59,257 bases of DNA from Rhodothermaceae bacterium (GTDB lineage Bacteria; Bacteroidota; Rhodothermia; Rhodothermales; Bin80), in contig VXLY01000094.1 in NCBI GenBank assembly GCA_009841335.1, positions 1-59,257 of the forward strand. The letters run 5' to 3'. The notes under the pieces were generated by a model that saw only the letters and a program-made list of their open reading frames with translations, ran no database searches and had not been told where the DNA came from. Position 1 is the first letter of the stretch. Each line of letters starts with the position of its first letter. Shown here piece by piece: positions 55,804-58,041 of the stretch. Position numbers and translations under genes: made by a program.

Positions 55804-58041
55804 ATGAGTTACACAATGAGTTACACTATCTATCGACGCGTCCTGGCGAGCGTACTAGTCGCCGTGGTTCTGAAGTTCGCAGTACCGGCGTTCGGACAAT
55901 CCGTTTGGACGACGCCCGCACCGGAAAGCTTATTAGGATCCGGGGAATTCATGTCTTCCGTTGCGTATTCGCCTGACGGCAGCCATCTCGTTTCTGGGTC
56001 GGGCGACGGTACCATTCGGATCTGGGATGTAACCACCGGAGCTGAAATGCAACGCTTCGATGGCCACGCGGACGAAGGAGGGGAACATATAGTTGATGCA
56101 TCTTCCGTGGCGTATTCGCCCGACGGCAGCCATGTGGCCTCGGCATCGTGGGACGGTACAGTCCGGATTTGGAACGTCACCACCGGAGCCGAAACGCAAC
56201 GCTTCGATGAACACACGGCTTAGGTAAATTCTGTAGCCTATTCGCCCGACGGCAACTATGTAGTCTCCGGGGCGGGCGACGGTACGGTCCGGCTTTGGAA
56301 CGTGACCACCGGTGCAGAGACGCGCCTCTTCGTAGGGCATGCGAACGAGGTGACCTCCGTGGCGTATTCGCCAGACGGCAATCACGTGGCCTCTGGCTCG
56401 TTCGACGGTACGATTCGGTTATGGGACATCGCCTCCGGAGCGGAGGCGGGCCGCATCGAAGTTGATTACGGGATTGTATCATCCGTGGCATACTCTCCAG
56501 ACGGTAGCCACGTGGCTTCTGGATCGGCTTATTTTGAGCCTCCGTTCGGGTTCGTCTACGGTACGGTCCAGTTATGGGACGTTGCCACGGGAGCGGAGAC
56601 GCAGCGCTTCGAGAGACATACAGCAGTTGTGACATCCGTGGCGTATTCGCCCGACGGCAGCCACGTGGTTTCTGGGTCGTGGGACGGTACGATCCGGCAC
56701 TGGAACATTGCAACCGGAGCGGAGGTGCGCCGCATTGATGCGACCACTACTGTGGTATTCTGCATAGCGTATACACCCGACGGCAGTCATGTAGCCTCGG
56801 GATCAACCGATGGGACAATTCGACACTGGAATCTAGCCACTGGAGTGGAAACGCGCCGTTTCGAACTACCGCGTTCCGAAGGTCATGGAGACGCCGTCTC
56901 TTCCGTGGCATTCCTGCCAGACGGCAGCCATGTCGCTTCGGCATCGTGGGACGCGACGATTCGGCTTTGGGACGTCAGCACCGGAGTCGCGGCGCACCGC
57001 TTTGATATTCTTGCCATTACCATGGCGATTTCACCCAACGGCAGTCATATGGCATTGGGGTGGTTTGACGGTTCAGTTCGGCTGTGGAATGTCGCCGCCG
57101 GAATGGAGACACGCCGCTTTGACACGGTTGCGTTCTCGGATGCCTTGGCATTTTCGCCCGACGGCAGCCATGTGGCCTCGGCGGCATTGGCAGACAGTTC
57201 GGTTCGGCTGTACAATGTCGCCACCGGAGCAGAGACGCACCGCTTCGAAGGCCACACGGACGGGGTGACCTCCGTGGCGTATTCGCCGGATGGAAAGTAC
57301 GTGGCTTCGGGGTCCGGTGACCAAACGGTCCGGCTGTGGGATATCGCTACACGGACGGAAGCGCACCGCTTCGAAGGCGACTCTCCAATTGGAGGGGTTC
57401 TATCCGTGGCATACTCACCCGACGGCAGCCATTTGGCTTCTGGTTCCGGTGACCAAACGGTCCGGCTGTGGAACATTGCCACCGGAACGGAGGCACGTAG
57501 CTTCGAAGGCCACTCGGGTTGGGTATCCTCTGTGGCATATTCGCCCGACGGCAGCCATGTGGCCTCAGGATCCGATGACGGCTCCGTTGTACTGTGGAGT
57601 GTCGCGACCGGAGCGGAGGCACTGCGCTTTGACGGCCACACGGACGAGGTGACCTCCGTGGCGTATTCGCCCGACGGAAAGTACGTGGCTTCGGGATCCT
57701 ATGACGGAACGGTGCGGTTATGGGACGTAGGTTCTCTGATTGGACCGGTTGATATTGAATCCCCAGACGTTACGCTCCCGGACGCAATCCAACTGTCTCA
57801 TTATCCGAATCCTATTGCGTCCGCAGCCACCGTTGAGTATCGCCTGTCAAATGCAAGCCATGTACGTTTGCTCGTCATAGACTTGCTGGGACGCGAACTC
57901 CAGGTCCTCGTCGATCAGGTGCGACCTGCGGGTGCACATGAAACGTTGCTCGCGACATCCCGCCTGGCGAGCGGCATTTATTTTCTCGTGCTACAAGCAG
58001 ATGGAGTGCACCTAACCCGTCCAGTTACCGTTGCGTGGTAG
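55804..58041 (+). pseudogene. Secreted 14-blade WD40 protein with sorting domain, interrupted by one in-frame TAG
   Basis: ATG 55804, with AAGAGG nine bases upstream, gives the signal peptide MSYTMSYTIYRRVLASVLVA and an end in AFGQ. Fourteen WD40 repeats follow (consensus SVAYSPDGSHVASGSxDGT and RLWDVATGAE), enough for two seven-bladed propellers. A type A sorting domain closes the protein: SHYPNPIASAATVEYRL, VIDLLGRELQVL and ASGIYFLVLQ. TAG at 56221-56223 stops the frame after the second repeat. The same frame then continues without any shift: VNSVAYSPDGNYVVSG. Related junctions in this gene read GACGAGGTGACC where this one reads GCTTAGGTAAAT, so GAG to TAG is a likely single change. Without read-through the product is about 139 residues. 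GTG 56302 could restart the remaining 579 codons but without a signal peptide. A read error is possible. Confidence 0.8.
56221..56223 (+). other. In-frame TAG inside the WD40 gene
   Basis: The only stop between 55804 and the normal end at 58039-58041 in this frame. TAG is used as an ordinary stop elsewhere in the window, for example at 263-265, so a genome-wide reassignment is unlikely. Confidence 0.85.

Follow-up and report, generated by a model that had tools for sequence, protein, structure and literature searches.

The gene at positions 55804-58041 (+ strand; gene A below) of the window, the 59,257-nucleotide stretch of a Rhodothermaceae bacterium genome analysed here, is probably a recent nonsense null, in which what its sequence suggests was a double propeller exported by the type IX secretion system (T9SS) has been broken by a single TAG. 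The stop almost certainly inactivates the gene, and we regard the break as an unremarkable case of decay in a repeat gene of recent origin, of a kind that has been reported before for such proteins. The youth of the lesion, the direction of the mutation and the fate of the product are inferred. Gene A alone alters no established view. It is nevertheless a clean and young example of decay in a family of secreted WD40 propellers whose members are acquired, copied and discarded from one close relative to the next. Moreover, several seeming breaks in WD40 genes turned out to be assembly gaps, which matters for pseudogene counts among repeat proteins.

Results

Reading frame and domain structure

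Gene A is a frame of 746 codons whose translation contains a sole internal stop, the TAG at codon 140 (56221-56223). The other five frames of the interval carry 11-23 stops each, so the open frame is not a product of chance. The initial annotation had described a frame running unbroken from signal peptide to sorting domain save for this one TAG, placed between blades 2 and 3 with WD40 sequence resuming in frame behind it. Translation of the 746 codons, the match to the sorting-domain model (TIGR04183, 31.1 bits) and the blade alignment bear out this description, and its coordinates were all correct. The features of the gene and its neighbours in the window are as follows:

54986..55735, + strand: outer-membrane beta-barrel gene (OMP_b-brl_2) upstream of gene A, in the inserted block (Pfam PF13568, above cut-off)
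55804..55896, + strand: signal peptide of gene A, residues 1-31, ending ...VPAFG/Q (direct reading of the translation)
55954..56220, + strand: WD40 blades 1 and 2 of gene A (blade alignment)
56221..56223, + strand: in-frame TAG, codon 140 of gene A (translation and blade alignment)
56224..57729, + strand: WD40 blades 3 to 14 of gene A, in the same frame with no further lesion (translation and blade alignment)
57802..58014, + strand: T9SS type A C-terminal sorting domain of gene A (TIGR04183, 31.1 bits, above the curated cut-off)
58069..58221, + strand: relic of a second OMP gene between genes A and B, partly overlapping the start of B (tblastn of the upstream OMP, residues 136 on; one stop)
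58148..59257, + strand: first half of the sibling WD40 gene B; the window ends inside it at a 10-N scaffold gap

The N-termini of WD40 family members are similar and end in GQ. At the very start of gene A (55804-55827) an imperfect 12-base duplication gives MSYTMSYT, and either ATG may be the true start. The product matches PF00400 with an E value of 1.9e-143 and has 14 WD40 blades, the start of blade 9 being degenerate; the TAG falls in the loop joining blades 2 and 3. For 12 of the 14 blades the best match is another blade of gene A, which indicates that the array underwent its own amplification or homogenisation.

The read-through frame comprises two sets of seven WD40 repeats. A model predicted from 18 family sequences has a mean pLDDT of 84 and a pTM of 0.54, a value too low to fix how the two halves are placed relative to each other. 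The top-ranked solved fold match, which is also the best sequence match, is 2YMU, whose 14 blades are arranged as two 7-bladed rings (PMC6805158), and other tandem seven-bladed proteins also rank high by fold. The blade count, the predicted fold and 2YMU therefore agree, as the initial annotation had proposed from the count of 14, and they support the view that the intact form would have been a secreted double-propeller protein. The host genome encodes the SprA translocon (TIGR04189, 1694.8 bits) and about 74 T9SS sorting domains, which makes export of the intact form by this route plausible.

Predicted consequence of the stop

In the proposed course of events, the gene originally encoded two seven-bladed WD40 propellers destined for export by the T9SS, and one base change in the loop that follows blade 2, most likely in a codon for Trp, would have created the TAG. 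Translation would then stop after 139 codons, leaving only a signal peptide and two blades. With too few blades to close a ring and no sorting domain, such a piece would be expected to undergo degradation in the periplasm. The part 3′ of the TAG would have neither a signal peptide nor a convincing restart. Four in-frame GTG codons there have weak purine-rich matches upstream, but all four lie inside repeated blade sequence and none is followed by a signal peptide, and internal restart was rejected on these grounds. Further support for a null comes from the presence of one lesion in 746 codons and from the related genes, most of which are intact, with 14 (or 12-15) blades and the same sorting domain. 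The same observations uphold the earlier claim of a formerly intact, secreted protein with a recent single lesion.

Origin and age of the stop

A change of GAG to TAG had been suggested, but this is not the best-supported origin. Across 261 family blades, the codons at the homologous position that lie one step from TAG are TGG (73), TCG (10), TAT/TAC (9), GAG (4), CAG (4), AAG (2) and TTG (1). TGG is the commonest codon at this position and becomes TAG by one transition, so Trp is the most likely source. In gene A itself, two blades have Glu and one has Trp at the homologous position. Descent from GAG is thus possible but weakly supported (4/261 blades against 73/261 for TGG).

Differences between gene A and its nearest relative fall 248/195/412 over the three codon positions, which speaks for long past constraint across the frame. 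Of the point mutations possible in this frame, some 3-4% create a stop. The absence of any second stop gives an upper 95% bound of about 90 neutral point changes (<4% of the gene), which falls to about 1% when indels are also counted, at a rate that we assumed to be one-tenth of that of point mutations. The frame 3′ of the TAG would on this account be clean because the lesion is young.

The WD40 family and the possibility of assembly error

Family members were collected from the host genome and five relatives, 27 genes in all. Five are in the host: A, B directly downstream, C (contig 68757-71165), and D and E on contig C3. Three of the 27 carry one in-frame stop each, in three genomes and at different places: gene A (TAG, codon 140), a gene of G012 (L056; TAG, codon 421) and a gene of G008 (L063; TAA, codon 163). 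The G012 gene, from another genus, is the nearest relative of gene A (support 99/98; about 53% identity after the stop). Separately, a WD40 gene of G014 (L066:6176-8077) has a TAG directly after its last blade and no sorting domain.

Three apparent frameshifts in the family are all N gaps: 10-N gaps in siblings B and E and a 100-N gap in G012. The 10-N gaps (contig C52:59258, at the window end, and L010:6409-6418) each lie between two identical copies of a 55-base sequence, as expected where an assembler makes a join at k=55. The notion that all family members of this genome are falling into decay, first prompted by the split frames of B and E, was accordingly dropped; taking every apparent break at face value would double the number of broken genes.

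The same gaps lend some weight to the idea that the TAG is a consensus or assembly error and that the true gene A is intact, with a sense codon at this place. The genome has the look of a de Bruijn assembly from short reads, and repeats in the WD40 genes clearly gave the assembler trouble, as the two gapped siblings testify. However, the stretch from about −79 to +17 of the TAG shares no 15-mer with other family sequence, and within 150 bases of it no 31-mer is common to other family sequence (own-genome loci checked in both cases), so a chimera caused by repeats is unlikely here. Substitution errors are uncommon in short-read consensus sequence. The window contains no N, and none of its other Pfam-checked genes looks broken. 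On balance we consider an error unlikely.

Possible on/off variation and readthrough

Surface and secreted genes often vary, and a nonsense allele of recent origin could well be polymorphic even now, so that the TAG might segregate in the population or be switched. Against this, direct reading of the TAG site reveals no homopolymer, short tandem repeat or invertible repeat, and the segment has no donor copy among the family loci of this genome. An on/off variant is, in our estimation, very unlikely.

Programmed or tolerated readthrough of the TAG would yield the full protein, and both the clean frame 3′ of the stop and the single in-frame TAG of the sister gene in another genus are what it would lead one to expect. 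This suggestion of the initial annotation nonetheless found no support. The family stops differ in place and kind (codon 140 TAG, 421 TAG, 163 TAA), RF1 is present in the genome, and TAG is an ordinary terminator that closes 5 of the 36 other listed genes in the window. A scan for tRNA(CUA) by sequence pattern alone returned 4 matches against 9 for the reversed-pattern control, and on that scan a suppressor tRNA is unlikely, with a small chance left for a divergent one. The RNA following the TAG folds no better than shuffled sequence (z = −0.84), and no unusual structure was found there. Taken together, these observations make readthrough highly improbable. Slightly less likely still is a variant in which the subfamily of gene A and its other-genus relative tolerates single TAGs, readthrough yielding a little full-length exported propeller and the stop setting the dose. 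Recoding is recognised by a conserved stop position and a decoding signal or suppressor tRNA; the stop positions differ among family members, the RNA fold is unremarkable and the pattern scan gave no tRNA(CUA) matches above its control. A recent null is the reading that we retain.

Genomic setting

Comparison of the same locus in relatives, as had been recommended, was carried out with G008 and G007, but neither has a counterpart at this site. In both, about 220 bases separate the O-methyltransferase gene from the aminopeptidase P gene, and the flanking proteins are 94-98% and 80-91% identical, respectively, to those of the host. In the host, about 6 kb separates these two genes (window 54730 to contig C52:60687), comprising the barrel gene, A, the barrel relic and B. 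The two nearest relatives at the site (compare L041 and L042) thus lack the block and present a clean empty site. No same-species or near-identical locus turned up in a species-level genome collection. Gene C likewise occupies a clean 4.1-kb insertion (L009:12954-17096) between galactokinase-like and periplasmic-binding genes, which are direct neighbours in G007. Neither inserted block showed terminal repeats, and mobile-element ends were rejected for the ~6-kb block on this basis. Gain, amplification and loss of these WD40 genes fit the rapid propeller turnover that has been published (PMC9218822).

Discussion

Gene A resembles three known systems, each in part. With T9SS type A cargo (TIGR04183) it shares a signal peptide, a C-terminal sorting domain and a genome that encodes SprA. 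Its intact relatives carry both signals on one product, whereas in gene A as written the TAG parts the signal peptide from the sorting domain and no product has both. The WRAP protein Npun_R6612 of Nostoc punctiforme (PDB 2YMU; PMC6805158) also has 14 WD40 blades in two 7-bladed rings. Its blades are nearly identical, however, and the protein is intact and STAND-linked, whereas the blades of gene A have diverged and its protein appears built for export.

A parallel in kind exists with disrupted repetitive beta-propellers. Highly repetitive propeller genes are known to decay via stops and frameshifts, and in-frame stops are named explicitly in the account of rapid turnover and decay of young propellers (PMC9218822). 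In that study the line for highly repetitive, recently amplified propellers is a median internal blade identity above 60%, with blades most alike within the protein; gene A, at 59%, lies just below it. The published examples are STAND- or TPR-linked, while gene A encodes a T9SS cargo with signal peptide and sorting domain. Like them, it is a multi-blade WD40 gene with an in-frame stop and further blades right after it; it differs from the class in that the lesion is a single point change and the downstream part, blades 3-14, follows the TAG in frame.
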